Virus record (IMG/VR): IMGVR_UViG_3300021437_000071
Coordinates: 1 to 27,534 of that record
DNA length: 27,534 nt
Strand: one strand, 5' to 3'
Origin: a virus
Below, in pieces: positions 1,951 through 21,051 of this stretch (its first letter is position 1; every line of letters begins with the position of its first letter). Under the pieces are notes generated by a model. The model ran no database searches. It was given only the letters and a program-made list of their open reading frames with translations, and had not been told where the DNA came from. Both the position numbers and the translations under genes were made by a program.

Positions 1951-2506
1951 GTTTATGGAACATGTCCGGCGGCTGCGCGTCCTGGTCCAGAACCTGGTGA
2001 CGCGCGTGGTCGTGGACCGTTCGGAAGGCTCCGGCACCTACCAGGTCCTCTGGGGCGGCGGACGCGTCTCCAGCGGCCTGGAGCACCTGGAGCCCCAAGG
2101 GATGCACTTCCGCGCGCCCGCGGACGCCGGCGGCGTCGTGGTGTCAGCGGGAGGCCAGCGCGAGGCCGGTGTCCTGGTGGTCGCTGGCGGGATCGTGCCG
2201 AACGACGCGATCGGCGAGGGCGAGGGCGGGCTCCACTACCTGGGCGAGTGGCGGGTGTTCTTGCGCTCGGACGGCGGCGTGTGTCTCGGTCAAAAGACCC
2301 CGGCGGACTGGGTCGCGCTCGCTAGCCTGACCGACGCCCGGATCGAGGCGCTCCAGAGCAAGCTGGACGCGCTCATCTCCGCCTACAACGCGCACGTTCA
2401 CGGCGGCGTCACGAGTGGTAGCAGCTCCAGCGGGACGCCGCCGACCGGCGCCAGTCCTGTGGGCTCTCTCGCGAGCGTGGCGAGTGAAAAGGTCCGGTGC
2501 GTATGA
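1943..2506 (+). CDS. Baseplate spike protein (Mu gp45 / gpV-like)
   Basis: A 187-residue protein of the Mu gp45 / phage baseplate V family, the membrane-piercing spike under the hub. An N-terminal OB-like part (VQNLVTRVVVDRSEGSGTYQ) is followed by a beta-rich middle. The C-terminus has the sequence NAHVHGG. His151 and His153 form an HxH motif like the one that binds an apical metal ion in P2/Mu-type spikes; metal binding here is inference. GTG at 1943 is chosen because it overlaps the stop of the hub gene. An in-frame ATG at 1955 is possible. It overlaps the gp46-like gene by ATGA. Confidence 0.85.
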   Translation: MAEFMEHVRRLRVLVQNLVTRVVVDRSEGSGTYQVLWGGGRVSSGLEHLEPQGMHFRAPADAGGVVVSAGGQREAGVLVVAGGIVPNDAIGEGEGGLHYLGEWRVFLRSDGGVCLGQKTPADWVALASLTDARIEALQSKLDALISAYNAHVHGGVTSGSSSSGTPPTGASPVGSLASVASEKVRCV

Positions 2507-2934
2507 TCGGCGTTTTCGGCGCGGCCGGCGGCGGGTTCGACCTCGCGCGCAACACCACCGGGCACCTGGTCTCGGACCCGTCGCTGCGAACGACCGTCCT
2601 CCTCCTGCTCCTGACCGAGGGTCGAGCGCTGGTCGAGGACGTGCGCACGTCCGAGCCGCGCGGCGGCTGGTGGGGCAACAGCTATCCTGACGTGGACGGC
2701 CGGGAGCTGGGCTCTCGCCTGCACATCCTGACCCGAGGCAAGGCCACGGCCCAGACCGCCGCCCTGATAGAGCAGGAGATCCGCCTACGCCTCCAGTGCC
2801 TGATCGACGACGGTATCGCTGTCTCGCTGGATGTGGACGTGAGCTGGTCCGGCGACCGCTGGACCGCGCTCGTAGGTGTGCGCCAGGACCAGTCCCGGGT
2901 CGAATGGGTCCCGCTCTGGGAGGAGACGATCTGA
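2503..2934 (+). CDS. Baseplate protein (Mu gp46-like)
   Basis: A 143-residue member of the phage GP46 family, a T4 gp25-like baseplate wedge component. The central RGGWWGNSYPDVDG followed by GSRLHIL matches the conserved GWWGDxYP...GSRLWLL core. The start is the ATG at 2503, which overlaps the upstream stop as ATGA. A GTG six bases earlier is possible but less likely. It sits between the spike and the J-like gene exactly as in Mu. The role in baseplate assembly is family knowledge. Confidence 0.88.
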   Translation: MIGVFGAAGGGFDLARNTTGHLVSDPSLRTTVLLLLLTEGRALVEDVRTSEPRGGWWGNSYPDVDGRELGSRLHILTRGKATAQTAALIEQEIRLRLQCLIDDGIAVSLDVDVSWSGDRWTALVGVRQDQSRVEWVPLWEETI

Positions 2935-2935
2935 C

Positions 2936-3988
2936 ATGGCCTTTCCTATCCCCACGCTCCGCGACCTCCTGACCCGCACCCAGACAGATCTCGGCTCCGC
3001 CGCGGACGGCACCAGCCCGCCGGCCTCGCCTGAGTACGCGATCGCGCGCGCCATGGCCGGCCTGAGCAAGCACCTGTTCTCGGCCGTCCAGTACGTTCTC
3101 CGCCAGACCAACCCGCTCACGGCCGACGAGGTCTACGGTTGGCGCTGGGGCGCCCCGTTCGGTATCGCCCAGACCGGCGCCGTGAGCTGGCGCGGGACCG
3201 CCACGGCCACCGGCGACAACGGGACGCTGATCCCGGCCGGGACCGAGTATCAGCGGGCCGACGGCCTGCTGTACACGACCGACGCGGCCGTGACGATCGG
3301 CGTGTCCGAGTCCGCCGAGGTCGCGCTCACGGCCACGACCGCCGGCGACGCGGCGAACAACGCCGACGGCCAGCTCCTATCGCTGACAGGCCCGGTCACG
3401 GGCCTGGACACCGACGCGACCGTGACGGGCTCGACCCAGTCCGGCGCCGATGTGGAGGACTGGGAGAGCGGAGGGCTGACCAGGCTCCTCCGCCGGGCGC
3501 GCAACCCGCCCAAGGGCGGCGGGCCGGGCGACTACGAGGGCTGGGCGCTGGAGGTCGCGGGCGTGACCCGCGCCTGGGAATTCCCCCTCCTGGAGGGCGA
3601 GAACACGGTCTCGGTCGCGTTCGCGCGCGACCGCGACGCCGACCCGATCCCGGACTCGGGCGAGCGCGCGACCGTCCTGGCCCACCTCCAGAGCAAGGCG
3701 CCGGTCACGACCACGCCCCTGGTCATCACACTGACCGCCAAGCCTGTAGCCGTCACGTTCTCGGCCCTGAGCCCGAACACGTCCGCTGTGCGTTCTGCGA
3801 TCGAGGCCTCGATCGCTGACCTGTTCCTGCGCGAGGGCGAGCCCGGCGGGACCATACCGCTCTCCCGCCTGGAGGACGCAATCAACTCCGCCGTGGGCGA
3901 GGTCTCGCACACCCTGAGCGCGCCCAACTCCGCGATCGTGATCCCCACCAACCAACTCCCGACGCTCGGGACTGTGACGTACCCGTGA
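2936..3988 (+). CDS. Baseplate J-like protein (Mu gp47-like)
   Basis: A 350-residue baseplate J / Mu gp47-family protein, the structural wedge that connects hub and fibres. The N-terminal helix region (TLRDLLTRTQTDL) is followed by the typical PLTADEVYGWRWG block. The J-like core comes next (GTLIPAGTEYQRADGLLYTT), then the DWESGG...RRARNPPKGGG segment seen in these proteins. The ATG at 2936 is preceded by a strong ribosome binding site, GGGAGGAG, at about 2919-2925. It is one base after the previous stop. The next gene overlaps its stop by GTGA. Confidence 0.9.
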   Translation: MAFPIPTLRDLLTRTQTDLGSAADGTSPPASPEYAIARAMAGLSKHLFSAVQYVLRQTNPLTADEVYGWRWGAPFGIAQTGAVSWRGTATATGDNGTLIPAGTEYQRADGLLYTTDAAVTIGVSESAEVALTATTAGDAANNADGQLLSLTGPVTGLDTDATVTGSTQSGADVEDWESGGLTRLLRRARNPPKGGGPGDYEGWALEVAGVTRAWEFPLLEGENTVSVAFARDRDADPIPDSGERATVLAHLQSKAPVTTTPLVITLTAKPVAVTFSALSPNTSAVRSAIEASIADLFLREGEPGGTIPLSRLEDAINSAVGEVSHTLSAPNSAIVIPTNQLPTLGTVTYP

Positions 3989-4524
3989 TCTACACCGCTG
4001 CCGACTACAAGGACTGGTGGTATCGGCACATGCCCAAGGGGCCCGTGTGGCCCGTGGACGCGTCGATCACGCCCGTGTGGGACTCGCTCCTGGACGCCCT
4101 GAGCCAGGAGCCCGCGCGCCTGAGCGCGGTCCTGGGCCAGATCCTGGACGCCCTGATCCCGAGCGCGACCATGCGCGCGGAGCTGCTCCCTGAGTGGGAG
4201 GCGTTCCTGGGTCTGACCCCGCAAGCCGCCGACTCGACCGCGACCCGAGCGACCGCGATCGTCGCCAAGCTGGGCGAGTACCTGTCCCCGAGCCTCCCCG
4301 AACTCCAGGCGCGAGCGACCGCGCTCAAGCCTGGCGCCACCGTGACGCACCACGAATACAAGCGTTTTCGCATGGGTGTGTCAGTCATGGGCGAGCCCTT
4401 GAACGGCCTCCAGTTCCTGGTGACCTGGCACGTGACCTACACCGGCCCAGCCGATGCGACGTTTGAGGCCGCGATGCGCGCGGTCAGCCCCGACCACACA
4501 ACCCTCCTGTTCACGGTGCTCTGA
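3985..4524 (+). CDS. Tail/baseplate protein (Mu gp48, YmfQ-like)
   Basis: A 179-residue protein of the Mu gp48 / DUF2313 family, baseplate-peripheral proteins encoded just before the tail fibres. Recognisable parts are the LLPEWEAFLGL block and the following ATAIVAKLGEYLSPS segment. The C-terminus (GPADATFEAAMRAVSPDHTT) matches the family's ending. The start is GTG at 3985, overlapping the upstream stop as GTGA. Its place between the J-like gene and the fibre agrees with Mu gene order. Confidence 0.85.
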   Translation: MIYTAADYKDWWYRHMPKGPVWPVDASITPVWDSLLDALSQEPARLSAVLGQILDALIPSATMRAELLPEWEAFLGLTPQAADSTATRATAIVAKLGEYLSPSLPELQARATALKPGATVTHHEYKRFRMGVSVMGEPLNGLQFLVTWHVTYTGPADATFEAAMRAVSPDHTTLLFTVL

Positions 4525-4525
4525 C

Positions 4526-5734
4526 ATGCAACGTATCAATACCGCTAATAAATCCGCGAACCTGTTCGGGACTGGCAAGCACGGCTACAAGGACGGCTCG
4601 CCCGGGCTCACCGGCGCCACAGAGCTGGACTCCGCCGCCATGAACGCGATTCAGGAGGAGGTCTCGCGTGCGGTAGAGACCGTGGGCGCCGTGGCACTGG
4701 ACGGGGCCAACTACGGCCAGCTCGCGGACGCGATCCTGGCCGGTATCCAGGCCCGGCGCGAACAGGAGGTCATGCTCTCGCTCCCCGCCGGGTTCGTCTC
4801 GCACGGGTCGGGGGCGTGGATGGACGCCGCCACGGACGGCGCCGGCAAGATCGTGATAGTGGGCTCCTCGGGCAAGGTCTCTACGGCGGGGTTCGAGACC
4901 GGCTCGTTCACTGCACGCACGCCCGCGGCCTCGTTCGCTGGTGGGTTCACCCGTGTCATTTGGGTGGCCAGCTTGGGTCTGTTCGTCGCGACGGGCGCGG
5001 GCCCGAGCAACGCTGGCACGATTCAGACCAGCCCCGACGGGGTCACCTGGACCCAGCGGTCCAGCGCCATGGCCTTTTACTGGGTCGTGAACCTGGGCGG
5101 TACGCTGGTGGCCTACGGCTACGACGGGACCACGAACTACAGCTACACCAGCACGAACGGGACGGGCTGGACCCAGCACGCGCTCGCGGTCGCGCTCTCG
5201 CGGAACGGCGCCGCGAGCGCCAGCGCCAGCATGCTGGTGTGCGGCGGCGGCGGGTTCGGGACCAGCACATCGGTCTACTCCAGCACGGACGGGATCACGT
5301 TCACCGCCCGGACGCTGGGGAGCTCGGACGACATGACCACCTACTCGCTGGCCTACTGCTCGGCGGGTTTCTTCGTTGCCGCCGGCCGGGACTCCACAGA
5401 CGCGGACGCGATCGTCCAGGTCAGCACGAACGGGACGACCTGGACCCGCGCCGTGCGCATCACCGGCGCCAACTCGACCAGCTACGCGCCGCTGGCCCTG
5501 GCCTCGGCCGTGGCCGTGCATGTCGTGAGCTGGCCGGCGGCCGCGTCCTCGTCGCTCGGGGAGCACACGATCACGCTGCGCGGCGCGGCGCTCTCGGGGA
5601 CTGGGTTCTACACCTCGTCCGGGACGCACACACCAGGCGCCCAGGCCCAGATCCTGAAGTGGCACGGCCGGCGCTCGGTCGTGTTCGTCCCGAGCGCCAG
5701 CGGCTTCTACGTCTCGTCCGCGTTCCTGACCTGA
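4526..5734 (+). CDS. Tail fibre with beta-propeller-like repeats
   Basis: A 402-residue tail fibre or tip protein. The N-terminal ~80 residues (KHGYKDGSPG, then TELDSAAMNAIQEEV and DGANYGQLADAI) resemble the baseplate-attachment segment of phage tail fibres. The rest is a string of sialidase/BNR-like blades with SPDGVTWTQ, SSTDGITFTA and VSTNGTTWTR turns (Asp-box-like S/T-x-DG-x-TW). This suggests a beta-propeller that touches the host surface. The ATG at 4526 is one base after the upstream stop. The gene ends one base before a convergent lipoprotein gene. It may be a receptor-binding or a decorating fibre; which of the two is not visible. Confidence 0.75.
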   Translation: MQRINTANKSANLFGTGKHGYKDGSPGLTGATELDSAAMNAIQEEVSRAVETVGAVALDGANYGQLADAILAGIQARREQEVMLSLPAGFVSHGSGAWMDAATDGAGKIVIVGSSGKVSTAGFETGSFTARTPAASFAGGFTRVIWVASLGLFVATGAGPSNAGTIQTSPDGVTWTQRSSAMAFYWVVNLGGTLVAYGYDGTTNYSYTSTNGTGWTQHALAVALSRNGAASASASMLVCGGGGFGTSTSVYSSTDGITFTARTLGSSDDMTTYSLAYCSAGFFVAAGRDSTDADAIVQVSTNGTTWTRAVRITGANSTSYAPLALASAVAVHVVSWPAAASSSLGEHTITLRGAALSGTGFYTSSGTHTPGAQAQILKWHGRRSVVFVPSASGFYVSSAFLT

Positions 5735-5735
5735 T

Positions 5736-6215
5736 TCAGTGGTGGTGCATCGCACCCAGCGCGCCGCGCGCGGTCCAGATCTCCGCGCGCGCGTGCTCTG
5801 TGTCCATGTCGCCCGCCGTGCAATCCGCCCACACGTGGTAGGTCTCGTGGGCCTGGAGCACAGACTCGGGCTCCCACTGAACAGCCTTGCGGCCGGTCTC
5901 GGGGACCTCGCCTGCAAAGTAGGCCACGGACAGAGTGTCCGAGAGCCAGACAGTACAGGCGTGCGCGCACTTGCCGGCCTCGGGGAGCTCCGCGCAGGAC
6001 GGGCGCGGACAGACCTCGCGGAACTCCTCGACCGAGACCCGGAGCCAGGCCGGCGCCGCGCACCGCTCGCCCGAGGGCGTGGTCAGGCCCTGAGCCAGCC
6101 AGGCCTCGCGCGCCTCGACCAGCACGGCCGCCGGGATCGGCTCCGCGCCCGCCGGCAAGACAGGTTGCGTGCATGCTGTTGCCAGCAAGGCCAGGAGGAG
6201 GACTGCGGAGCGCAT
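5736..6215 (-). CDS. Lipoprotein with an HExxH motif (possible phage moron)
   Basis: A 159-residue predicted lipoprotein on the strand opposite the surrounding late genes. The hydrophobic N-terminus ends in the lipobox LATAC, with Cys15 as the lipidated residue. Six more cysteines (52, 69, 74, 83, 87, 132) suggest disulfides in the envelope. Residues 123-127 are HETYH, a zinc-peptidase HExxH signature, and acidic or His candidates for a third ligand follow (D138, E140, H141, E145). Metal binding and peptidase activity are inference; I recognise no family. The single reversed gene next to AT-rich DNA looks like lysogenic-conversion cargo. An anchored lysis or superinfection-exclusion factor is an alternative. 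Lipoprotein call firm, enzyme call weak. Confidence 0.7.
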   Translation of the reverse strand: MRSAVLLLALLATACTQPVLPAGAEPIPAAVLVEAREAWLAQGLTTPSGERCAAPAWLRVSVEEFREVCPRPSCAELPEAGKCAHACTVWLSDTLSVAYFAGEVPETGRKAVQWEPESVLQAHETYHVWADCTAGDMDTEHARAEIWTARGALGAMHHH

Positions 6216-6315
6216 GCTTTATGATACGGCTGCGCGAATCAGAACGTTAGCCAAATATATAAATCAAAAATAGATTTTGCGCGAATTGTAGGTATCGGGT
6301 ATGCTCACGAGCATC
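6216..6315. promoter_or_regulatory. AT-rich divergent promoter region
   Basis: An AT-rich gap between two divergent genes, in sharp contrast to the G/C-rich surroundings. Rightward, TTGCGC (6277-6282) and TATGCT (6300-6305) are 17 bases apart, a weak sigma70-like pair. If it is used, translation would begin at the ATG at 6316. Leftward, TATCAT (6224-6229 on the reverse strand) matches the -10 consensus in five of six bases. It has no clear -35, and lies only about eight bases from the lipoprotein ATG. The region probably lets the lipoprotein be expressed from its own promoter, as for moron genes. Exact promoters are uncertain. Confidence 0.4.
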
Positions 6316-6921
6316 ATGTCAGACACTACGCCCGAGATTCCCGCACCGGCACCCGAGCTCGCCCCGTCCGTCCTCGTGACCCCGGCTCAGGTGTGGTCTG
6401 CGGCCGCCCAGAACATCGCGATCGTGGCGGCTATCACGGCGGCCTACTTCATGGGCAAGTGCCCCCTGGAGCTCTGGATTGCGGCGCTCTCGTACGTGGC
6501 GGGCGTGGACCTCTACGGTCGCAAGCTGGCGAGTCGGTCCGGCGCCCTGGCGCTGGCCATCGGTGCTACCGGCGCGTTCTCGGGCCTCGGTCGGCTCCTC
6601 CTGGTCCTGGTCGCGGCCGCGGGCGTGAGCCTCGGCTCAGGCTGCGGTCACGTGAACGAGACCCTGGAAAAGGCCGCGCCCACGATCGGCGCCGTGCTGG
6701 TCAGCGCACAGGCTGCGCACTCGGACGTGGTCGAGGCCCGCAAGGCCGCGGAGGAGGTCGTGGCCAGGCTTTGCGCCGCTCCCCCCGAGGACCTGGTTCA
6801 GGTGTGCGCCAAGGCCGCCCAGCTCCTGGTCAAGGCTCACGAGGCCACGAACGCCGCGGCCGATGCGGGGAACGTGGCCAAGTCCCTCTACGACACCCTG
6901 AACGCGGAGCTGAAACAGTGA
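6301..6921 (+). CDS. Membrane protein with holin-like N-terminus and lipobox-like segment
   Basis: A 206-residue protein of unknown family. After a Pro/Ala-rich start there are hydrophobic segments at about 38-52, 57-68 and 82-113. The last ends in LGSGC (Cys115), which resembles a lipobox. Residues 120-206 are a hydrophilic helical region with two Cys (138, 149), like small phage lipoproteins encoded near tail or lysis genes. It therefore looks like a holin-like membrane part joined to a lipoprotein or spanin-like part. No internal start codon was seen that would split them. ATG at 6301 or 6316 could be used. A lysis role is inference. It overlaps the following 37-aa gene by GTGA. Confidence 0.6.
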   Translation: MLTSIMSDTTPEIPAPAPELAPSVLVTPAQVWSAAAQNIAIVAAITAAYFMGKCPLELWIAALSYVAGVDLYGRKLASRSGALALAIGATGAFSGLGRLLLVLVAAAGVSLGSGCGHVNETLEKAAPTIGAVLVSAQAAHSDVVEARKAAEEVVARLCAAPPEDLVQVCAKAAQLLVKAHEATNAAADAGNVAKSLYDTLNAELKQ

Positions 6922-7031
6922 ACGCCCTTGCCCAGATCGCTATCCGCCTCGCCCTGGCCGCGCTCAAGCTGATCCCCGGCGCACCCAAGCCCAAGCCTGG
7001 CCCCGAGGTCCCGACCTTCCGCAAGGACTGA
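6918..7031 (+). CDS. Small amphipathic peptide, 37 aa
   Basis: A short gene starting with GTG at 6918, overlapping the upstream stop as GTGA, the coupling seen throughout this phage. The product begins with an amphipathic helix (NALAQIAIRLALAALKLIPG). It ends in a Pro/Lys-rich tail (APKPKPGPEVPTFRKD). No family is recognised. The position after a membrane protein would suit a small lysis accessory or membrane-associated peptide, but this is a guess. The evidence for coding is the exact overlap and the filling of the gap before the next fibre gene. Confidence 0.5.
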   Translation: MNALAQIAIRLALAALKLIPGAPKPKPGPEVPTFRKD

Positions 7032-7036
7032 TCCCC

Positions 7037-8455
7037 GTGAACCAGCGGCGGCGCGGTACAGACGTGGCGCCGGTCGGGGTGAACGGACCGGCCATCCATT
7101 CGGGCGACGGCGCGCCCTCGGACACCCTCGGCCTGAGCCAGGACCTGTACATCGATCTGACCACGGGCGGCCTGTGGCGCAAGAACGACGGGACCTGGGA
7201 CCTTGAGCTGGTGCTGGGCGGCGTTCTGACCGTGAACTACGGCGGGGGCGGTGGCGGCGCCGGAACACTGACCGAGGTGGCGGTCAGCGGGACCGGTATC
7301 CTGGTCGCGAGCGGCACGGGACCGATCCCGACTCTGTCCCTGGACTTCGGCACGGTCTCGGGCAAGGTCGCGGACGGCGGGAGTCTCGCCACGACCGAGG
7401 CCGCGCGCGCCGCGCACGCGAGCAACACGTCTAACCCGCACACCACGACCAAGGCCCAGGTAGGCCTCGGGAACGTGACCAATGACGCCCAGTGGGCGAG
7501 CACGCTTTCCGCGCAGATCAGCGCGCTGACAGCTAAGACTTCGGTGGCTGATGCAGACGTGCTGCCGATCGAGGACAGCGCCGCCTCCAACACGAAGAAG
7601 AAAGTCGCATTCAGCGATCTGCGCACGTCGCTGGGCATCGCTGCGGCGTTTACGCCTGCGAGCCTGAGCCCAAAGCACCGCTGGACCGCCGGCACGACCG
7701 TTCAGAGCGGCGGCCTCGTGGATACCATCACGGACCTGGGCTCGGGCGGCAAGAACATGACCGCGGCTGGCGCGGCGCGCGTCGCGACCGCTACCGACGC
7801 GAACGGCAAGACCTACCTATCGTTCGGAGGGTCTGGCATCTACACCGCGGGGGTCGCGGCCGACTGGGCATTTCTGCACAACGCGCTGGCCACCTACACA
7901 GTGTTCGTGGTGTACGCGGACGCGACGCCCACGGCCGTTGCTACAGAGACGATCCTATCGTCCATGAACTGGAGCGGCTCTGGGACCGGGATGAATATCG
8001 TCCACGGATTCAACACCGGGCACGGCTTTGACTTCGCGATATTCGGCGGCACCCTGAACGCTGGTATGTCAGCTGGTCGTCTCAAGTCGGCCTACAACAC
8101 CGGCGCGGAGGTGTGGGCGTTCACGTTCCATGGTCCGTTCAGAGCAGCCGGTGGAGGCTCCAACAATTTTGGCGGATTCAGCTCATCCCCTACATGGGGC
8201 ACTGGCACAACGCTGCAAGCCATAACGCTGAATTGTGGCGGATGTCAGGTCGGGGGTAACTTCAGCTCCGGTACATTCAGCACCGCCAATCCGAACGGCG
8301 CGCTGACCATGGGCTCCATGGCGGACGGCAACGTCAAACTGTCCGGACGCATTTACGAGATCATGATCACGCCGCGCGCGTGCCGGCCCTACGAGATCCA
8401 GCAATACGCGGACTGGGCCGCCGCGAACTACAGCGTGAACCTGGCCGCGTGGTAG
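7037..8455 (+). CDS. Tail fibre with lectin-like C-terminal domain
   Basis: A 472-residue fibre protein. The N-terminus carries the GDGAPSDTLG...DLYIDLTTGGLW element common in phage fibre and collar proteins. A Gly-rich linker follows at about 70-77. Residues near 130-150 hold NPHTTTKAQVGLGNVTN, a classic tail-fibre shaft motif. The C-terminal ~250 residues look like a laminin G/concanavalin-type sandwich (KHRWTAG, then TYLSFGGSG). They end in GRIYEIMITPRACRPYEIQ, typical of LamG-like lectin domains, and this part probably binds the host receptor. The GTG at 7037 follows the previous stop by five bases. Base composition drops over the tip region, suggesting exchange of that domain. Confidence 0.78.
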   Translation: MNQRRRGTDVAPVGVNGPAIHSGDGAPSDTLGLSQDLYIDLTTGGLWRKNDGTWDLELVLGGVLTVNYGGGGGGAGTLTEVAVSGTGILVASGTGPIPTLSLDFGTVSGKVADGGSLATTEAARAAHASNTSNPHTTTKAQVGLGNVTNDAQWASTLSAQISALTAKTSVADADVLPIEDSAASNTKKKVAFSDLRTSLGIAAAFTPASLSPKHRWTAGTTVQSGGLVDTITDLGSGGKNMTAAGAARVATATDANGKTYLSFGGSGIYTAGVAADWAFLHNALATYTVFVVYADATPTAVATETILSSMNWSGSGTGMNIVHGFNTGHGFDFAIFGGTLNAGMSAGRLKSAYNTGAEVWAFTFHGPFRAAGGGSNNFGGFSSSPTWGTGTTLQAITLNCGGCQVGGNFSSGTFSTANPNGALTMGSMADGNVKLSGRIYEIMITPRACRPYEIQQYADWAAANYSVNLAAW

Positions 8456-8481: not shown

Positions 8482-8504
8482 CCGGGCCCGTGTCGTGGGC
8501 CCGG
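8482..8504. terminator. Strong hairpin between convergent tail and integrase genes
   Basis: A perfect 8-bp inverted repeat, CCGGGCCC (8482-8489) and GGGCCCGG (8497-8504), encloses a 7-base loop. Outer AGGG/CCCT bases could extend the stem across a small bulge. It lies between the convergent tail-fibre and integrase genes, where a two-way terminator is expected. There is no proper U-tract on either side, so the terminator call rests on stem strength and position. Confidence 0.6.
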
Positions 8505-8522: not shown

Positions 8523-8564
8523 TGGAGCTGAGGGGGATCGAACCCCTGACCTCTGCATTGCGAA
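8523..8564 (-). other. attP: attP core: 3' half of tRNA-Ala(CGC)
   Basis: On the reverse strand this 42-bp block reads as the 3' part of a tRNA. It has an anticodon loop TTCGCAA with anticodon CGC (Ala), the 3' anticodon stem TGCAG and the variable loop AGGTC. The T arm follows, AGGGG-TTCGATC-CCCCT, then the acceptor strand CAGCTCC and discriminator A. The bases 5' of the anticodon loop do not pair with TGCAG, so no complete tRNA is present. CCA is not encoded. A tRNA 3' end next to an integrase gene is the classic layout of a phage attachment site. The flanks on both sides are phage genes. Confidence 0.85.
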
Positions 8565-8581: not shown

Positions 8582-9664
8582 CTAGGACGCCGGCGGGCTT
8601 GAATTCCCTACGTTTTCGGCGGCTGGAGCTGGCTCGGGCTGGCCCGACGGGCTGGAGTTTTGACACACTGCTGACTCACCCAGAGCGCCCAGCGCGGCCA
8701 GGTCCTCGGCGGTCACATCCACGCTCCTGAGTCTCGCGTAGCGGCGCTCGACCATGCGCGTGGACTTGTGGCCGAGGAGCGCCGCGATCCTCGCGTGCGG
8801 TACGTCCGCCAGGAGTAACAGCGTGGCTGTGCTGGCGCGGAGGTCGTTCCAGGTCACTCGGCCGAGATTGGCCGCGGCGGCGTAGGCCTTGAGGTCGCGC
8901 CCAGCGTTGTGCCAGGGCTCCAGCGGCCCGGCGGCCAGGATCTCCTCCGCGATCGGTGTGAGCGGGATCGTCCGGGCGCCGGTCTTGAGCCCGTCCTCGC
9001 CCTCGCCCGCCACGCCCTCGACCAGCCGCCCGAGCCCGGGCGCGATGCGTCGGAGCGCCCAGACCTCGGCCTTACGCAGCCCGGTCTGGAGCGCGAGCAT
9101 GATGGCCCGCGCGCGCTTTGGCGGCGCCGCCGCCAGGAGCCGCAAGGCCTCGTCGGCCGAGAGCCAGCGCTCGATCACGCGCGGGCGCGGTAACTCGGGC
9201 AACTGCGGGCACGGGACGCCCAGCGCCCCGCACGCCGCGCGCAGGTCCGCCAGCTCCCGACGCACGGTGTCAGCGCTCGCGCCCGCGTCCATGCGGGCCG
9301 AGGCGTAGGCGGTCAGGACCTGTGTGTTGAGGGCGTCTACGGCGGTATCGGGGCCCAGGACCTCGAACACGTGATCGGCACTGTAGCCCGAGCGCTCGCG
9401 CGTGGACGCGGGCGCGGCGCGAACGATCAGGGCTTTTTCTCGGGCCGTGAATGCGTCCTCCAGCGTCGCGCGCGCTCCGCGATCGAGGCCGGCCGCGAGC
9501 CGCCGCTCGATCTCGGCGGCGACGATCTCCGCGCGGCGTTTGGCGCCGGCGCCGGCGGTCTTGATCCCTGTGGAGCGCCGGACGCGGACGCGCGCGTCGG
9601 CCTCGGCGTCGTAGTAATAGGCGACGGCGTACCACACGCCGCCGCGCGCCTTGACTTCTGGCAC
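8582..9664 (-). CDS. int: Tyrosine recombinase integrase
   Basis: A 360-residue site-specific recombinase of the phage integrase family. The N-terminal arm-binding part (GVWYAVAYYYDAEADARVRV) and a SAM-like core-binding domain precede the catalytic domain. Catalytic residues are Arg197 (TGLRKAEVW), Lys227 (LKTGARTIPL), Arg276 in NDLR, His299 (LLGHKS) and the nucleophile Tyr309 (ERRYARL). The first His of the usual HxxR box is Asn273. The C-terminal ~45 residues are a disordered Ser/Pro/Ala tail. The GTG at 9664 is the first start after an in-frame stop. The gene ends 17 bases from the tRNA fragment, so it should catalyse integration there. Confidence 0.93.
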   Translation of the reverse strand: MPEVKARGGVWYAVAYYYDAEADARVRVRRSTGIKTAGAGAKRRAEIVAAEIERRLAAGLDRGARATLEDAFTAREKALIVRAAPASTRERSGYSADHVFEVLGPDTAVDALNTQVLTAYASARMDAGASADTVRRELADLRAACGALGVPCPQLPELPRPRVIERWLSADEALRLLAAAPPKRARAIMLALQTGLRKAEVWALRRIAPGLGRLVEGVAGEGEDGLKTGARTIPLTPIAEEILAAGPLEPWHNAGRDLKAYAAAANLGRVTWNDLRASTATLLLLADVPHARIAALLGHKSTRMVERRYARLRSVDVTAEDLAALGALGESAVCQNSSPSGQPEPAPAAENVGNSSPPAS

Positions 9665-9834
9665 GCCTGCACTTGTGCCGTACGTTGCAGGTAGGCGTCA
9701 AGGTCCGCCTCCCGCACGCGTAGGCGGCGCATGATCACGAACCCGCCCGCGTCGTGCATGAGGTCGCGCGCGGCATCGATTGAGAGCTGGCAGCGCTCCG
9801 CCACGTCCTCGGGCGTGAGGAGGCGATAGGTCAC
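9427..9834 (-). CDS. Excisionase-like helix-turn-helix protein
   Basis: The first ~60 residues form a MerR/excisionase-type HTH of the helix-turn-helix 17 kind. They read LLTPEDVAERCQLSIDAARD, then a short wing and READLDAYLQR. GTG at 9834 overlaps the upstream stop as GTGA, which fixes the start. The frame stays open to 9427 (135 aa), running 238 bases into the integrase gene in another frame. Residues beyond about 65 are low-complexity Pro/Arg/Ser and look like alternate-frame translation rather than a selected domain. Probable role: directionality factor for excision beside int. HTH assignment solid, C-terminal extent doubtful. Confidence 0.65.
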   Translation of the reverse strand: MTYRLLTPEDVAERCQLSIDAARDLMHDAGGFVIMRRLRVREADLDAYLQRTAQVQACQKSRRAAACGTPSPITTTPRPTRASASGAPQGSRPPAPAPNAARRSSPPRSSGGSRPASIAERARRWRTHSRPEKKP

Positions 9835-10040
9835 GCTGCGCGGCTCCGCCGGGCGTAGTCCGCGGCGCACTCCTGCCAACTCGCGGCCTGGCGCTCGAAC
9901 ACAGCTACCATGATCGCGGCGTCGTAGTCGCCCGCGCCGAGGTTCGTGCGCTCCAGCGCGGCCTGGTCCATACACCAGCGCGCCTCGGCGTAGGCCGCGC
10001 TCGCGTGCCGCTGGAAGCGCATGCGTTGCTGGGGGCTCAC
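9831..10040 (-). CDS. Hypothetical protein, 69 aa
   Basis: A small protein beginning SPQQRMRFQRHASAAYAEAR and largely helical. It has Cys and Trp residues at WCMDQAALERTN and SWQECAADYARR. No family is recognised. The GTG at 10040 and the TGA at its end both overlap neighbouring genes by four bases, so it is translated as part of a coupled chain from the cupin gene to the HTH gene. Coding is supported by that spacing and by normal residue composition. Confidence 0.6.
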   Translation of the reverse strand: MSPQQRMRFQRHASAAYAEARWCMDQAALERTNLGAGDYDAAIMVAVFERQAASWQECAADYARRSRAA

Positions 10041-10447
10041 GCCGCCGCTCCGCGTAGCGCGCGGACCGCCTCGCGGCCGTTGGTCAGGACCTGGAAGCCC
10101 TGGGCCTCGGTCCACTCCAGCCACTCGTCCGCCCAGGGCCCGCGCACGGTCGCGACGTAGGAGCGCCCGACGCTGACCACCTTGTGGAACGTGTTCTTGC
10201 GCGTGACGAACACGCACGGCGCCCGATACACGAACACGCCGCCGAACAGGTGGTGTTCGTGTAGCTCGCCCTCCAGGAGGACCGACACACAGTCGAACGC
10301 GTGCGAGTGGTAGGCCTCGCGCGAGCCGTCCTCGAATCTGAGGAGCGCGACCGTGGCCAGGCGTTTCGCCTCCACGAACCAGCCCCAGACCGTGGACTCC
10401 TCGCCGCCATCCTTGCCGAACCCGATCTTGATACCAGCGATTTTCAC
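10037..10447 (-). CDS. Cupin-fold protein
   Basis: A 136-residue protein with a single cupin-like barrel. The HSHAFDCVSVLLEGELHEHH stretch resembles the cupin metal-binding motif 1 (HxH...E...H). A later FVTRKNTFHKVVSV stretch could supply the last His of motif 2. The Trp-rich C-terminus (GPWADEWLEWTEAQG) is unusual. Substrate and role are unknown; similar small cupins occur in phages without a known function. GTG at 10447 overlaps the upstream small gene's stop, and its own stop overlaps the next start. Confidence 0.65.
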   Translation of the reverse strand: MKIAGIKIGFGKDGGEESTVWGWFVEAKRLATVALLRFEDGSREAYHSHAFDCVSVLLEGELHEHHLFGGVFVYRAPCVFVTRKNTFHKVVSVGRSYVATVRGPWADEWLEWTEAQGFQVLTNGREAVRALRGAAA

Positions 10448-10617
10448 TTGCTTTTCTCCCTGCGACCGTAAACGACCGCTGAAATGGCCTTGGTGTCCGA
10501 GAGCTGGGTCCGGCCGCGGCGCTGGTTGCGCCAGGCGACCAGCGCCGCCAGGAGCGCGACCCGTTCGTGGTGTGTCAGCAGGGACTTGTCCGAGGGCGGG
10601 CGGCGGATATCAGCCAC
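10444..10617 (-). CDS. Hypothetical basic protein, 57 aa
   Basis: A short gene from GTG at 10617 to the TGA at 10444, which overlaps the cupin start as GTGA. The product is basic and helical (HHERVALLAALVAWRNQRRG; ISAVVYGRREKSK). It has a DNA-binding look but no recognisable motif. Its start overlaps the end of the upstream 59-aa gene by 8 bases. Coding is supported by tight overlaps at both ends, in a segment that would otherwise be an unexplained gap. Confidence 0.55.
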   Translation of the reverse strand: MADIRRPPSDKSLLTHHERVALLAALVAWRNQRRGRTQLSDTKAISAVVYGRREKSK

Positions 10618-10789
10618 GCTCCGACTCCTCGCGCTTGCGGACCGCCGGGATCATGACCGTGTCGGTCCGGGGGCGTGGCGGGAGCCCGCTCCGATAGGTC
10701 CCGTTCGCGTGGCGGCACCCGTAAGGACAGGTCTCGTAGCGGACGCGTCGCGGGCGCTCAGGCTTGGTCTCAGGCTGTGTCTTGGTCAT
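10610..10789 (-). CDS. Hypothetical protein with CPYGC motif, 59 aa
   Basis: ATG at 10789, stop at 10610. The product is charged and contains CPYGCRHANG near residue 25, where two Cys and a His could bind zinc. No family is recognised. The start codon lies in the left arm of a 9-bp inverted repeat, and no good ribosome binding site precedes it. Its expression may therefore depend on that structure or on a leaderless transcript. It overlaps the next gene by 8 bases. Confidence 0.5.
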   Translation of the reverse strand: MTKTQPETKPERPRRVRYETCPYGCRHANGTYRSGLPPRPRTDTVMIPAVRKREESERG

Positions 10790-10811
10790 AAACTAAAAAT
10801 GATTTATGACC
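10784..10811. promoter_or_regulatory. 9-bp perfect inverted repeat over a gene start
   Basis: GGTCATAAA (10784-10792) and TTTATGACC (10803-10811) are perfect inverted repeats with a 10-base A/T-rich spacer. The repeat sits in the 43-base gap between the SPFH gene and the 59-aa gene and covers the latter's ATG. It could be a repressor operator or an RNA hairpin that hides the start codon. It is strikingly AT-rich for this genome. Confidence 0.5.
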
Positions 10812-10832
10812 GTTCCGCGCGCAATGCGACGG

Positions 10833-11369
10833 TCAAAGATCAGTGGGCTTGTGTCCCACCAGACAGATCGGGCGGGCCTTGGACAGGTGGACCAGCTGGA
10901 CGCGGAGAGCCTCCAGACCCCACTCGCGTGACGCCACGTCTACGGCAGCGGTCAGCTCGCGCGCGAATTTGGGCGTGGTCAGCTCGGACCAGCGGGTCGC
11001 GGCTACGTGCGTAGCGATCGTGCCGCCGGCCGAGTCCAGGATCGCGGCCTCATGGCCGCCGCTCAGGCACACCAGTTTGCGCGCGTCCACACACCGGGTC
11101 GTGACCACGGCGGTCACCACGACCTGGACACCGTCGGCGGTCGTGAGCGGTTGTGGCGCCAGCTGGCGCGGGTAGGGCACGGTCCACTCCGCCGCCACGC
11201 TCTCGATATGGAACGGCAGAACGAAGTGGAGACCGGGCCCGAGCGTGCGGTGATACTTCCCCAGGCGAAGCACCACCGCCACCTCCCAAGCCTTCACGAT
11301 CTTCAGAAAACGAAAACTGTCCAGAAACTGGATCAATAAATCGAAGATCTGGCCGATGGCTGGGAGCAT
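10833..11369 (-). CDS. SPFH/Band 7 (stomatin-prohibitin-like) protein
   Basis: A 178-residue SPFH-domain protein. An N-terminal hydrophobic hairpin (IGQIFDLLIQFLDSFRFLKI) would attach it to the inner membrane. The SPFH start follows (EVAVVLRLGKYHRTLGPGLH, then FVLPF). Next come the TTADGVQVVVTAVVTTRCVD strand block and helices (RELTAAVDVASREWGLEALR). It is shorter than bacterial stomatins, as it lacks a long C-terminal coiled coil. The role is not predictable. SPFH proteins form membrane oligomers and regulate proteases, and phage versions may interfere with host membrane quality control. The upstream neighbour is a one-TM acidic protein, a possible partner. Confidence 0.85.
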   Translation of the reverse strand: MLPAIGQIFDLLIQFLDSFRFLKIVKAWEVAVVLRLGKYHRTLGPGLHFVLPFHIESVAAEWTVPYPRQLAPQPLTTADGVQVVVTAVVTTRCVDARKLVCLSGGHEAAILDSAGGTIATHVAATRWSELTTPKFARELTAAVDVASREWGLEALRVQLVHLSKARPICLVGHKPTDL

Positions 11370-11455
11370 GGCGGTAGGTTAGCACGAAAGCTCACCCGCG
11401 CGCGGGTGCTGCGGCGGGCGCGGAGCTGGGCGGCTCCTCGTCCTCGTCCTCGTAC

Positions 11456-11737
11456 TCAGGCCCGCCCGCGTCCGGGTCGAGGCCCGCCCGCGTCCGGGTC
11501 GAGGCCGGCCTCGCCCTCCCAGTCCGAGCCATCCGGGTTACAGAGGTCCACGCCCGAGTCCTCGTCCTCGTCGGTCAGCTCCTGATCGTCGGCCATTTCG
11601 CGGCACGCCAGGTCGTAGCCCTCGGCGCGCCCCTCCTCCAGGCCCTGGTCGAATCCGCGGAACGAGCCGTGGGCCTTGCCGATCACGTAGCTCATGCCAG
11701 CGGTCGCACACACACCGAGAATATATAGAATATCCAT
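11456..11737 (-). CDS. Acidic single-TM protein with frameshifted C-terminus
   Basis: A 93-residue protein with one N-terminal membrane segment (ILGVCATAGMSYVIG) and an acidic tail (DDQELTDEDEDSGVDLC). ATG at 11737 overlaps the upstream TAA. A 22-bp tandem duplication near the 3' end moves translation into another frame, giving the basic ending PRPGRGRA. With one repeat copy the frame would instead continue as PEYEDEDEEPPSS and stop at 11392, keeping the acidic character. The gene therefore appears recently altered, unless the duplication is an assembly error. Function unknown; it lies beside the SPFH membrane protein. Confidence 0.65.
   Translation of the reverse strand: MDILYILGVCATAGMSYVIGKAHGSFRGFDQGLEEGRAEGYDLACREMADDQELTDEDEDSGVDLCNPDGSDWEGEAGLDPDAGGPRPGRGRA
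11461..11504. repeat. 22-bp exact tandem duplication
   Basis: Two adjacent identical copies occupy 11461-11482 and 11483-11504, beginning CCCGCCCGCGTCCGGG. The unit is 22 bp, not a multiple of three, and it lies inside the acidic membrane protein gene. It therefore shifts that gene's reading frame. Confidence 0.9.
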
Positions 11738-12156
11738 TACTTGCTCTCGTTCTTTCTGGCGGCGCGGGCCGCCTTGACATCGTCCTGCATGCGCGCGCTC
11801 GCGCCGGTCTTGGGCGGGCGGTTGTCGATCAGGGTTCCGGCCTGGCGCGCGTCCTCCAGAATGGAGCAGCACGCCTTGATGGCGCCGAGGTTCGGGACCT
11901 CTGTGTCTGTGGTCAGCTCATCGCCATCCACCCAGGCGTCCAGGTGTCTCCTGATGGCAGCCACGTAGGTCATGGCCTCGATCGAGGAGACCCGCCAGTT
12001 GAACGCGCCGTATTTGCGCGCGCCGTCCTCCAGGGCCAAGGCCTCGATCACGTTGCCCGAGCCCGGGATCAAGGCCAGGTTCGGTTTTTGCGCGCCGAAG
12101 GCGGCCTTGGGGTTCGTCGGCCGATCGGCCGGGGTCTTGGTCTTGGGTTCGCTCAC
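11737..12156 (-). CDS. dATP/dGTP diphosphohydrolase-like protein (DUF5664/MazZ-like)
   Basis: A 139-residue all-helical protein of the phage family formerly DUF5664 (dATP/dGTP diphosphohydrolase N-terminal domain). The core is LALEDGARKYGAFNWR, then AAIRRHLDAWVDGDEL and LGAIKACCSILEDA. These match the family's G-A-K-K-Y-G-x-x-N-W and R-H-L-x-A-W-x-D-G-E/D blocks. Relatives cleave dNTPs to dNMP and pyrophosphate; in 2-aminoadenine phages MazZ supplies dGMP. GTG at 12156 overlaps the HD-hydrolase stop as GTGA, so the two nucleotide enzymes are coupled. Substrate is not determined by the sequence. The C-terminus is basic. Confidence 0.72.
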   Translation of the reverse strand: MSEPKTKTPADRPTNPKAAFGAQKPNLALIPGSGNVIEALALEDGARKYGAFNWRVSSIEAMTYVAAIRRHLDAWVDGDELTTDTEVPNLGAIKACCSILEDARQAGTLIDNRPPKTGASARMQDDVKAARAARKNESK

Positions 12157-12770
12157 TTGGTCAGCTCCTCGTAACGAATGAGAAAAAGCTCCCGGGTTTG
12201 CCACCAGTGCAGCTCCCTCGTGAGGTAGACCTGTGCGAGCGCGTGTTCGTGTGCCGAGACCGGCGCCGGCGGCTCCTCGTCCCCTCCACGCCACGGGTCC
12301 GGCCAGCGCCCGCGCAGATACTTGCACTCCAGCTGGTAGGCGCGCTCATCGGCGGTCTTGACCTCGGGCGCGCTGTGCGCGGCCAGGTCCGGGAACGAGG
12401 GGAGGAGCTGCGACACGATCCGGTCCTCCAGCTCCCGAATACCTGGCACCAGGCGCTTGATCGGGAGGATCACGTCCCCGATCCCGAACGCCTCGGGTAT
12501 GTCGTGGAGGAGCCCGGCCAGCGCCATTTCGGGCGAGGTCAGGCGAGAGACCAGGACCGAGTGAGTGGCCACGCTGTAGGGCCAGCGCGTGGCGCCCGCG
12601 TAGCGGTTCACGCGCGAGAGGCGGCCGGCGATCGGGCCGATGGACATGTCCTCGGGCGCCAGGGCCAGGAGGTCGCGCACGCGCCCGTCCTCCAGGCCCT
12701 GGGGAATGCTCGCCGGTAGCGAGCCGCGGGCGGCGTGGGTCGCGGGCGGCGTGAGGGTCGCGCGAGTCAT
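12153..12770 (-). CDS. HD-domain phosphohydrolase (YfdR/YfbR/DatZ-like)
   Basis: A 205-residue HD hydrolase. The metal-binding set is visible: His70 (VATHSVLVSRL), His89-Asp90 (AGLLHDIPEAF) and Asp141 (KTADERAYQLE). The GDVILPIKR stretch after the HD is typical of the YfdR/YfbR group, which dephosphorylates deoxynucleotides. DatZ, the dATP triphosphohydrolase of 2-aminoadenine phages, belongs to related proteins. The C-terminal ~45 residues (residue 160 onward) are an extension beyond the core. ATG at 12770 overlaps the upstream stop as ATGA. It is coupled to the diphosphohydrolase-like gene, suggesting joint control of the dNTP pool during replication. Confidence 0.82.
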   Translation of the reverse strand: MTRATLTPPATHAARGSLPASIPQGLEDGRVRDLLALAPEDMSIGPIAGRLSRVNRYAGATRWPYSVATHSVLVSRLTSPEMALAGLLHDIPEAFGIGDVILPIKRLVPGIRELEDRIVSQLLPSFPDLAAHSAPEVKTADERAYQLECKYLRGRWPDPWRGGDEEPPAPVSAHEHALAQVYLTRELHWWQTRELFLIRYEELTK

Positions 12771-13654
12771 GCCTTGCCGCCGTTCCGCCGCGGCGCCGTG
12801 GCCGAGGCCTGAATCGAGACCTTGAGCCCCGGGACGCTGGCCTGGTTCTTGGCCTCGCGTGCGTAGGCGCCCAGGGCTTTGGTGTTGAGGGTCAGGAGGT
12901 CGTTCGGCGCGACCGCATCCACGCCCAGGGCCTGGACCAGCACCTGGAGCACGGCGTTCGCCTGGTCGGCCGGGAGAGCGGGCTCCATGCCCTGGAGCGC
13001 GGTCACCAGCTCGCCCAGCGCGACCGCACGGCGGAGCTTGGTCTCGTCCTGGACCTCGTAGACCCAGACCTCGCGCACGCCCATACCGACCGGCAAGGCC
13101 ACGTTCTCGCGCCCGTGTGCGAGCACCAGTGTGTGCTCGTCCACGCTCCCGCCGGCGGCCTCGACCGCGAGCCGCGCGGCGTCCTGAGCCGCCACGTCCG
13201 CGCGCATCTTGGCGTTGATGCGATCGCGGAGGAGCGCCTCGGCCTCGGCGTAGATCTTGTCGACCGGCTGGTAGAGCAGCTTTTGCTGTTCCATGGCGGT
13301 CTTGAGCGGCTCCAGGGCCGCGTTCATGCGCGCTTTTATCGAGCGCCGCGCCTCCAGCACGCCGTCCAGGAACTTGCCGGCCGTGTCCATGGCCGCCTGG
13401 GTCGTGATCTCCATTTCGCGGATCAGCGAGAGCGCGTTCTCGGCCGAGGACTTCTCCTCGGCCAGCGCCTCGCGCGTCCCGTAGGTGACCAGGTTATTCC
13501 CGGTCAGCGGCGTGCCGCCCTCCGCGAACGCGGGCGAGCCCGCGGCCCGCCACTCGGCCAGGTCCTTTTCGCACAGCCCGTTTTCGACGGCCGGCCGGCT
13601 ACAGCGGCGGCGCTTGCAAACGCCGGGCTTCGGCGTGTGTGTGATGTTGAACAC
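12767..13654 (-). CDS. Coiled-coil phage protein with N-terminal Cys motif
   Basis: A 295-residue protein. The N-terminus holds a Cys cluster (GVCKRRRCSRPAVENGLCEK) that could bind zinc. Residues about 70-165 form a long helix or coiled coil (SIKARMNAALEPLKTAMEQQ). The C-terminal half has a VWVYEVQDETKLRRA segment and ends AREAKNQASVPGLKVSIQ. This layout, with W-x-V-x-D followed by a terminal IPGV/VPGL motif, recalls uncharacterised proteins encoded in phage recombination modules. Function unknown. GTG at 13654 has a strong site, GGAGGG, upstream. It is the first gene after a promoter-like gap and heads the HD/diphosphohydrolase cluster. Confidence 0.65.
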   Translation of the reverse strand: MFNITHTPKPGVCKRRRCSRPAVENGLCEKDLAEWRAAGSPAFAEGGTPLTGNNLVTYGTREALAEEKSSAENALSLIREMEITTQAAMDTAGKFLDGVLEARRSIKARMNAALEPLKTAMEQQKLLYQPVDKIYAEAEALLRDRINAKMRADVAAQDAARLAVEAAGGSVDEHTLVLAHGRENVALPVGMGVREVWVYEVQDETKLRRAVALGELVTALQGMEPALPADQANAVLQVLVQALGVDAVAPNDLLTLNTKALGAYAREAKNQASVPGLKVSIQASATAPRRNGGKA

Positions 13655-13692
13655 TAACTGACCCTCCTCGAAAAACTAAAAACCCTGTATCT

Positions 13693-13720
13693 AGTATGCT
13701 GTTTTTGCCGCCCCTGGCAA
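13693..13720 (-). promoter_or_regulatory. Probable leftward sigma70-like promoter
   Basis: On the reverse strand TTGCCA (13715-13720, five of six matches to -35) is 16 bases from CATACT (13693-13698, four of six matches to -10). It lies in an AT-rich gap just past the resolvase stop. Transcription would start near 13686, about 30 bases before the coiled-coil gene's GTG, with a GGAGGG binding site between. It would drive the nucleotide-enzyme, SPFH, cupin and int operon. Confidence 0.5.
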
Positions 13721-13725
13721 GCGCC

Positions 13726-14160
13726 CTACAGCCGCCCGAGGTAGCGCAGGACGATCCCGCACGCGTCAACCACGTGACCGCGCTCGGTCTTTCGCACCGG
13801 CAAAATCGAAAGCTCCGCGCAGGTCATGCGCGAGAGAATGCGCGCCTGGTGGATCGGCTTGGGGACCTGGCCTTTCCACTCGCGCGGCTCCCACAGGAGC
13901 GTCCGGGGCGCGCTCACGTAGGCCTTGACCTCGCCCGCCGAGAGCGTGAGGTCGGTCACGTCGCGGCGGCGGGCCTTGCTCGCGGCGTACTGCTGTGGTT
14001 TTTCGATTATGCACACATCGGGGGCGTGCGCGCGGAGCTGAGCGGCGTCCTCGATCCGCCCGAGGTAACCACACGCGATCAGTCGTGTGCCCTGGGCGAA
14101 CGCCCAGCCCAGGTACTTGACGCCCGGGTCGATCCCGAGGACGCGCGAGGACTCAACCAT
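13726..14160 (-). CDS. RuvC-like Holliday junction resolvase
   Basis: A 144-residue RuvC/RNase H-fold nuclease, slightly shorter than bacterial RuvC. Catalytic acids are visible: Asp11 (VLGIDPGVKYLGWA), Glu53 (VCIIEKPQQY) and Asp132 (GHVVDACGIVLRYL). The middle carries a SAGEVKAYV helix and a Lys-rich WKGQVPKPIHQ loop, as in RuvC. It should cut four-way junctions made during replication or before packaging. The ATG at 14160 overlaps the methyltransferase stop by 8 bases. An earlier in-frame start would lie deep in that gene and is less likely. Confidence 0.82.
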   Translation of the reverse strand: MVESSRVLGIDPGVKYLGWAFAQGTRLIACGYLGRIEDAAQLRAHAPDVCIIEKPQQYAASKARRRDVTDLTLSAGEVKAYVSAPRTLLWEPREWKGQVPKPIHQARILSRMTCAELSILPVRKTERGHVVDACGIVLRYLGRL

Positions 14161-14836
14161 GGACGCGGACCTCGGCGTCACCCAGGCCGGCCTCCTCACA
14201 CAGGAGCTTGAACATGTGCGCGCTGGGTCCCCAGTAGACCAGGACCAGCGGCGCCGGGAAGCTCTGATCGTAGCCCAGAAACGTGACCGGGTTCAGCCAG
14301 CACACGGCGTCGGCGCGGTCGAGGACGGCGGCGCGGAACCACGCCCGGTGCGTGCGCACCGGAACCAGGCCGGCGATCTCGTAACCGAGCCCGGCCTCCT
14401 CCACGGCCTTGGCCAGCCAGTCCTCCAGCGCGTTGTATGGCGGATTGAAGTAGGTCCCGTCGCACCAGGGCGAGGTCAGGCCTGGGCCCGTCCACTCCAG
14501 GATCGGCTGGCCGTTTTTCTTGCGCCGGCCGGTGTCGACCTGTTCGCCGTAGTAGGCGCGCTCGGGCGCCAGGATCGAGTCGGGTCCGGCGCACGGGTCG
14601 AGGCGGATAGCGCCCCAGAGCTTGACCAGGAGATCCCGGATCTCGGCGGGCGTGTAGACCTCCTGGGGCCGGTCGGTGTCCGGGCTCCCGATCGGGGTCT
14701 TGACCGTCGCCTGGACGCCCGAGACCTCCTCGGCCGGAAAGCTGGCGCGCTGGCGGTCGCTCGCGCCGTAGAACGCGCGGAGCGCCTTGGTCGAGGGGTC
14801 ATAGACCAGCGTCGGCTCGGACGCCGTCGCGGTCAA
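14153..14836 (-). CDS. Phage DNA N6-adenine methyltransferase (Dam family)
   Basis: A 227-residue protein of the phage-type N6-adenine methyltransferase family. It shows TPAEIRDLLVKLWGAIRLDP, with the DPCAG cofactor-site block at 80-84. The catalytic motif is NPPY at 131-134 (GTYFNPPYNALEDW). A family-typical LVPVRTHRAWF stretch and FPAPLVLVYWG complete it. It would methylate adenines in phage DNA, probably against host restriction. The chosen start is a rare TTG at 14836, which overlaps the cold-shock stop as TTGA, the same coupling as elsewhere. The frame is open further upstream, but a longer N-terminus would run through the cold-shock gene. Target site unknown. Confidence 0.82.
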   Translation of the reverse strand: MTATASEPTLVYDPSTKALRAFYGASDRQRASFPAEEVSGVQATVKTPIGSPDTDRPQEVYTPAEIRDLLVKLWGAIRLDPCAGPDSILAPERAYYGEQVDTGRRKKNGQPILEWTGPGLTSPWCDGTYFNPPYNALEDWLAKAVEEAGLGYEIAGLVPVRTHRAWFRAAVLDRADAVCWLNPVTFLGYDQSFPAPLVLVYWGPSAHMFKLLCEEAGLGDAEVRVHG

Positions 14837-15057
14837 GACACCACCTCCAGGTCCGAACAGTAGGGCCCGCGCGGCCCGACACAGGGCACGAACGATACGA
14901 GATCGCCAGCGTCCACGGCTCGGTAGTCCTCCATACGGATCTGGGTGTAGTGAATGAAGTGCTGGACCTCGTTGTACAGCACGAACCCGTAGCCCTTGGG
15001 TGCGTCGAACCACAGCACAGTCCCCTTGACTCGGTCGCCTAACACTTGCTCTGACAC
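14833..15057 (-). CDS. Cold-shock (CspA-like) nucleic-acid-binding protein
   Basis: A 74-residue single cold-shock domain. RNP1 is KGYGFVLY after the KGTVLWFDAP strand, and RNP2 is HFIHYTQI. The C-terminal strands (LVSFVPCVGPRGPYCSDLEV) close the OB barrel. It binds single-stranded RNA or DNA and may act as an RNA chaperone or antiterminator. GTG at 15057 has the binding site AGGTGG six bases upstream. It is the first gene of a leftward unit with the methyltransferase and the RuvC-like gene. Confidence 0.88.
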   Translation of the reverse strand: MSEQVLGDRVKGTVLWFDAPKGYGFVLYNEVQHFIHYTQIRMEDYRAVDAGDLVSFVPCVGPRGPYCSDLEVVS

Positions 15058-15129
15058 TTCGGACCACCTATTTATGAAATATGACTGTTCGAGACTTCTC
15101 GTCCAGCCGAAAACCTGAAACGGTCGGAT
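15058..15129 (-). promoter_or_regulatory. AT-rich leader of the cold-shock operon
   Basis: A 72-base gap upstream of the cold-shock gene. It contains an AT-rich stretch (CATATTTCATAAATAGG on the reverse strand) with CATATT and CATAAA as possible -10 elements. An interrupted palindrome CGAGA-AG-TCTCG lies just upstream. No convincing -35 is seen. A promoter with an operator is likely but not located precisely. Confidence 0.35.
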
Positions 15130-16176: not shown

Positions 16177-16177
16177 T

Positions 16178-18415: not shown

Positions 18416-18418
18416 GGT

Positions 18419-18931
18419 TCAGCTCGCCGCCTGGAGCTGGGCCACGATCGCCGCGAGCGTGCGCTGGTTGTCGGGGTGCGAGCGGTAGCTGTGCTTGATG
18501 AACTTGAAGCGCTTCGCATCCTTGTCCTTGGGATTGGTCTCGCTGGTCTGGGCGGTGTCGCAGTAAAGCGCGCCCTTGAGGAGCCCGTGCGAGACGACCA
18601 TGGTCGCGAGCCCGACCCAGTCTTGCTGACTCTCGGGATCGAGCCCGAGCGCGGCCGCCAAGAACCCCTTGAGGTTGCCCATGGCGATCTGTTTCTTGGT
18701 CTTGTTGTCGGAGCGGAGCCCGTTGATCGTGATCGAGGAGCGCGTCCCCTCCGCAAAGTCCTCGTTCGTGCTGGCGCGGATCATGTTCTCGACCACGAAC
18801 GAGAGACCGTTCTGGCCGTCCACGATCTTGACCTCGTCCACCTCCAGAACGAAGTCGCCGTCGGTGTGCTTCGGGAGCTGGTCGCTGACCGAGGCCTCAT
18901 CCAGTCCGCTGAAAAGTGCTGCGTAGTCCAT
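18419..18931 (-). CDS. Single-stranded DNA-binding-like protein (DUF669-like)
   Basis: A 170-residue protein that fits the OB-fold, SSB-like phage family DUF669. A beta-rich first half (GDFVLEVDEVKIVDGQNGLS) leads into NGLRSDNKTKKQIAMGNLKG. A helical FLAAALGLDPES follows, then a hydrophobic strand and FIKHSYRSH near the end. It probably coats single-stranded DNA at the phage fork. Its position directly upstream of the polymerase and downstream of a helicase supports this. ATG at 18931 has AAGGA seven bases upstream. The leader contains a hairpin. Confidence 0.65.
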   Translation of the reverse strand: MDYAALFSGLDEASVSDQLPKHTDGDFVLEVDEVKIVDGQNGLSFVVENMIRASTNEDFAEGTRSSITINGLRSDNKTKKQIAMGNLKGFLAAALGLDPESQQDWVGLATMVVSHGLLKGALYCDTAQTSETNPKDKDAKRFKFIKHSYRSHPDNQRTLAAIVAQLQAAS

Positions 18932-18958
18932 GTGCTTGTCCTTGTTCTTGTTCCTAAC

Positions 18959-18979
18959 GGGACCTGACTATCAGGGCCC
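18959..18979. promoter_or_regulatory. Imperfect 9-bp hairpin in the leader of the SSB-like gene
   Basis: GGGACCTGA (18959-18967) and TCAGGGCCC (18971-18979) pair with one mismatch around a CTA loop. It lies between the helicase stop and the SSB-like gene. No U-tract follows on the reverse strand, so it may be an RNA-processing or attenuation hairpin rather than a full terminator. Confidence 0.4.
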
Positions 18980-18988
18980 GAGAGCTTG

Positions 18989-20809: not shown

Positions 20810-20818
20810 TTCGAGCCT

Positions 20819-21016: not shown

Positions 21017-21051
21017 TCCACAGCGTGCCGCCAGGCCGGCACCAGAGCATA

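Follow-up and report, generated by a model that had tools for sequence, protein, structure and literature searches.

A tRNA-Ala(CGC) 3' fragment beside a tyrosine integrase gene as the probable attachment site of an uncultured temperate phage

The 42-bp block at positions 8523-8564 of the IMG/VR record IMGVR_UViG_3300021437_000071 is very probably (about 93%) the identity segment of attP in an uncultured phage that is temperate, has Mu-like baseplate genes and would integrate at a tRNA-Ala(CGC) gene. A tRNA half beside an integrase gene is the usual route by which a temperate phage enters a tRNA gene without breaking it. The whole stretch of 27,534 nucleotides was analysed and is referred to here as the window.

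The attP block and its neighbouring genes

Read on the minus strand, the block is TTCGCAATGCAGAGGTCAGGGGTTCGATCCCCCTCAGCTCCA (42 bp) and corresponds to positions 32-73 of tRNA-Ala(CGC). It comprises the anticodon loop (7 nt), the 3' side of the anticodon stem (5 nt), the variable region (5 nt), the T arm (17 nt), the 3' acceptor strand (7 nt) and the discriminator A (1 nt). It therefore covers the 3' part of the tRNA from its anticodon loop onward, as is expected of a tDNA attP. No chance copy was observed in 100 shuffles of the window when up to 3 mismatches were allowed. ARAGORN detected no tRNA gene in the whole 27.5-kb window, so the 5' half of the tRNA is absent. The original prediction of a tRNA-Ala(CGC) 3' half serving as attP, with the anticodon loop, T arm and acceptor strand present and the 5' half missing, is supported by this exact tDNA fragment, by the adjoining integrase gene with its catalytic residues and, as described below, by the point at which the identity with the host copies ends, by the in silico restoration and by the place of the integrase gene in two related phages. 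A full tRNA-Ala on the contig, which had been named as the finding that would speak against it, was absent from the window by the same ARAGORN search.

Only 17 bp separate the block from the stop codon of a tyrosine integrase gene (8582-9664, minus strand, 360 aa), which reads toward attP and matches PHROG 1 (E=4.5e-33) and PF00589 (E=9.9e-10), as expected from the earlier claim that the block abuts such a gene. Its sequence contains the catalytic residues R, K, R, H and Y, with Asn in place of the box II His (NDLR). Most aligned homologues also have Asn here, and it is therefore not a sign of decay. Directly upstream, an ORF on the minus strand (9427-9975) carries an excisionase-like HTH_17 match (PF12728, E=2.8e-5) that is sub-threshold, with 24.7 bits against a cut-off of 27. 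In another frame, this ORF remains open over some 240 nt of the beginning of the integrase gene (9664), which probably reflects a high-GC open frame or overlapping genes.

The block separates two gene groups, as had been claimed, with the tail genes on one side (6-8455) and the integrase and replication genes on the other (8582-25693). The baseplate and tail block lies for most of its genes on the plus strand. It begins with Mu-like baseplate genes (hub, gp45-like, baseplate J and wedge; 6-4524, plus strand), which were identified by profile matches and are syntenic in two related phages, and it ends with a tail fibre-like gene (7037-8455, plus strand, PHROG tail matches) that converges on attP and whose first 57 aa are conserved in both relatives. 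The xis-like, integrase and replication genes lie on the minus strand and include a replication and DNA metabolism block (DNA polymerase, helicase, primase and others; 12767-25693), again with profile matches and synteny in both relatives.

Between the stop codon of the tail gene and attP, a GC-rich hairpin (8482-8504) forms a stable fold with z-scores of -2.4 on the plus and -3.2 on the minus strand. It has no T-run and is therefore not a consensus terminator. A scan for sigma-70 promoter and intrinsic-terminator consensus sequences around attP was negative, and a search for arm-type integrase sites gave short two-copy repeats alone, which were unconvincing. A 12-bp unit is repeated perfectly in tandem (GCGGTCTCGGGC x 5.6) where the contig ends (27467-27533). 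This repeat is likely the reason why the assembly stopped.

Host copies of the block and the predicted integration

When 84,980 species genomes were scanned for exact matches, the 42-mer was found at 25 places, one per genome. ARAGORN called a complete tRNA-Ala(CGC) gene at 24 of these, and the 25th is cut by a contig end. The base preceding the block is G in all 25 host copies and C in the phage, so the identity between phage and host ends precisely at position 32, which forms the 5' edge of the anticodon loop. When the host 5' half (locus L012) was joined to the phage block in silico, a complete tRNA-Ala(CGC) was obtained with ARAGORN, whereas attP itself and the predicted far junction gave no tRNA call.

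For the integration we propose that the tyrosine integrase recombines attP with the single tRNA-Ala(CGC) gene of the host. Strand exchange would most likely take place in the 7-bp anticodon loop TTCGCAA (8558-8564, minus strand), where the identity with all 25 host genes starts. The in silico restoration, the integrase homologues beside tRNA genes and the known class of anticodon sites all point to this crossover region. The phage block would replace the displaced 3' half and so rebuild the tRNA at that end of the prophage where the tail genes lie, and the original 3' half of the host gene would be left at the integrase end. The lysogen junction is predicted to show GGGGCTGTAGCTCAGCTGGGAGAGCGCTGCG ahead of the block. 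Integration would place the hairpin at 8482-8504 immediately behind the restored tRNA, and the hairpin may insulate or terminate the tRNA transcript.

No lysogen or attL/attR pair was found for this phage. The 25 genomes with the exact site contained neither a second exact copy of the block nor a close integrase homologue; the sites look empty, and hence no lysogen was seen among them. The exact 42-mer was also not found in the viral contigs. A search of bacterial genomes for complete tRNA-Ala(CGC) genes ending in the block and flanked by a prophage had been proposed at the outset; it yielded 24 complete genes of this kind, with no lysogen seen among the 25 genomes.

Related phages and the state of the DNA

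Two relatives were identified in IMG/VR, IMGVR_UViG_3300046681_000082 and IMGVR_UViG_3300024286_000008, with sizes of 45.7 and 46.4 kb. They belong to the same lineage, with 69% identity in the helicase, 58% in the polymerase and 60% in baseplate J, and both have the same order of replication genes, integrase, short gap and tail genes, with the integrase at the same junction. They differ in that both encode an unrelated tyrosine integrase, the gap is without tRNA sequence and the GC content is 57%, compared with 69% here. The other integrase and the tRNA-free gap indicate that integrase and site are exchanged as a cassette. An alignment scan of the viral contigs with the helicase returned the two known relatives and nothing further. 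In the relatives, the conserved gap after their own integrase (L030 13733-14021, L033 12397-12636) holds an inverted repeat, ACGCCTGGTGGTTT ... AAACYACCAGGCGT, without a tRNA match, which is possibly an attachment site of another kind.

The ends of both relatives overlap, in one by an exact end repeat of 127 bp and in the other inside the primase gene, and both are therefore circular or circularly permuted. Together with their sizes, this shows that the window is a fragment of about 60% of such a genome (about 27.5 of ~46 kb). The phage genes continue on both sides of attP, and the stretch of tail genes, attP and integrase corresponds to the map expected for free phage DNA, which supports the reading that the window is an unintegrated fragment. 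This agrees with the original prediction of virion or episomal DNA or of tandem copies, although tandem prophages would look identical. If the contig came from two tandem prophages at tRNA-Ala(CGC), their internal junction would have the same sequence as attP and would mimic it in integrated DNA. Tandem islands in tDNAs are on record (PMC4383910), and the contig is linear and incomplete. We consider this origin unlikely, since host genes were identified nowhere in the window, including the sequence beyond the block, where they had been named as contrary evidence, and since the overlapping ends of the relatives are those of free circular or permuted phage DNA.

The integrase itself had no relatives in the viral contigs or in the named phages, and a search for near DNA matches in phages gave no match. 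Two bacterial groups were sampled with the integrase: Myxococcota gave homologues in 8 of 379 genomes and Gemmatimonadota in 0 of 395. Most of those in Myxococcota adjoin complete genes for tRNA-Phe, tRNA-Met or tRNA-Lys, and several of their reading frames extend into tRNA sequence. The nearest ones (L036, L038, L039, L041, L043 and L044) share the NDLR box II where it is readable. They differ from the phage integrase by their other target tRNAs, by their identity of about 26-34% and by the orientation of the core: there the 3' end of the integrase gene faces the 3' end of the tRNA, whereas here the integrase gene and the tRNA sense lie on the same strand. This inverted core is a difference of geometry only. 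We regard it as improbable that lysogeny alters the maturation of the host's single tRNA-Ala(CGC), as might be imagined from the inverted core, with the restored tRNA at the tail end and the integrase gene by the displaced fragment, from the loss of any encoded CCA and from the gain of the phage hairpin.

The different core orientation and the swapping of cassettes, seen in the unlike integrase of the two relatives, would also fit a captured leftover of host tDNA that is unused while the integrase targets another site. This is very improbable, because a decaying fragment would carry mismatches, whereas the 42-bp copy is perfect, starts precisely with the anticodon loop and has the integrase gene 17 bp away. 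An origin of the block from the 3' end of a tmRNA, to which the best Rfam hit points (tmRNA_permuted, a weak local match with E=0.022, below the gathering score, explained by the T-arm/acceptor domain that tmRNA and tRNA-Ala share), is refuted by the CGC anticodon loop and stem strand in the block and by its exact genomic copies, every readable one of which is a complete tRNA-Ala(CGC) gene (24 of 25, the 25th being unreadable at its contig end).

Host range and comparison with known systems

The 42-mer is present in at least four bacterial lineages, Gammaproteobacteria, Gemmatimonadota, Hydrogenedentota and Myxococcota, and the host is therefore not fixed by the block alone. The lineages were taken from the record titles, and two MAG titles reading Klebsiella were disregarded. 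Of the host target named originally, the tRNA-Ala(CGC) gene stood, with a single copy of the 42-mer per genome, and the host taxon did not follow from it. Helicase homologues were detected in 5 of 379 Myxococcota genomes, in 0 of 395 Gemmatimonadota, in 0 of 229 genomes of the class of the Rhodanobacteraceae MAG G021 and in 0 of 68 Hydrogenedentota. The homologues found are distant, at about 28-39%. Their distribution favours Myxococcota or a relative, which is somewhat the likelier host. A Gemmatimonadota host was considered because the copies there are without an encoded CCA, like the phage block. This argument is weakened, since many Myxococcota tRNA-Ala(CGC) genes also lack the CCA and since neither a helicase nor an integrase homologue was detected in the 395 Gemmatimonadota genomes. 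The candidate phyla could not be told apart by comparing tetranucleotides. In the Myxococcota genome G206:C1, at about 640-661 kb (L072-L073), an integrase homologue adjoins tRNA-Phe, and a helicase homologue (38%) is found ~19 kb from this integrase homologue. This region is possibly a distant prophage relative.

In the Islander collection, a 3' tDNA fragment is present in 3760 of 3919 islands and an anticodon-centred site in 2083. Sites in which attP is centred on the anticodon and holds the 3' part of the tDNA form the most frequent class there (PMC4383910). Members of this class usually have the anticodon loop as their 7-bp overlap (PMC4383910, PMC8371274). Together with its stem, the 7-bp loop agrees with the overlap and core sites that tyrosine integrases use (PMC8371274). 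Like the anticodon-subsite (class A) sites of Islander, the phage block starts at the anticodon loop, takes in the 3' part of the tDNA, lies beside an integrase gene and restores the tRNA. In Islander the sites are attL/attR, whereas here an attP is seen in free phage sequence with no integrant known (PMC4383910). The phages with tRNA-dependent lysogeny likewise have a tyrosine integrase and an attB that overlaps a host tRNA gene, but their identity with the host spans only ~10 bp, and a complete tRNA is encoded on the phage (PMC10865867). This mode was rejected here: in place of a short core that does not rebuild the tRNA, 42 bp of identity restore it, and a complete tRNA of the disrupted isotype was not found in the 27.5-kb window of the ~46-kb genome. 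The Myxococcus phage Mx8, which infects Myxococcota, is likewise temperate and has its attP beside or inside the integrase gene. In Mx8, attP is located inside int and integration changes the C-terminus, whereas here attP follows the integrase stop codon (PMC6070905).

Taken together, the block is a textbook example of an attP whose tyrosine integrase targets tDNA at the anticodon subsite, of an ordinary and very common kind, and the general picture of tRNA-targeting integration is unchanged. The comparison of the related phages shows that integrase and attachment site are exchanged between them. In conclusion, the block marks this lineage of uncultured phages as temperate, points to the host gene that is most likely entered and narrows the host candidates.
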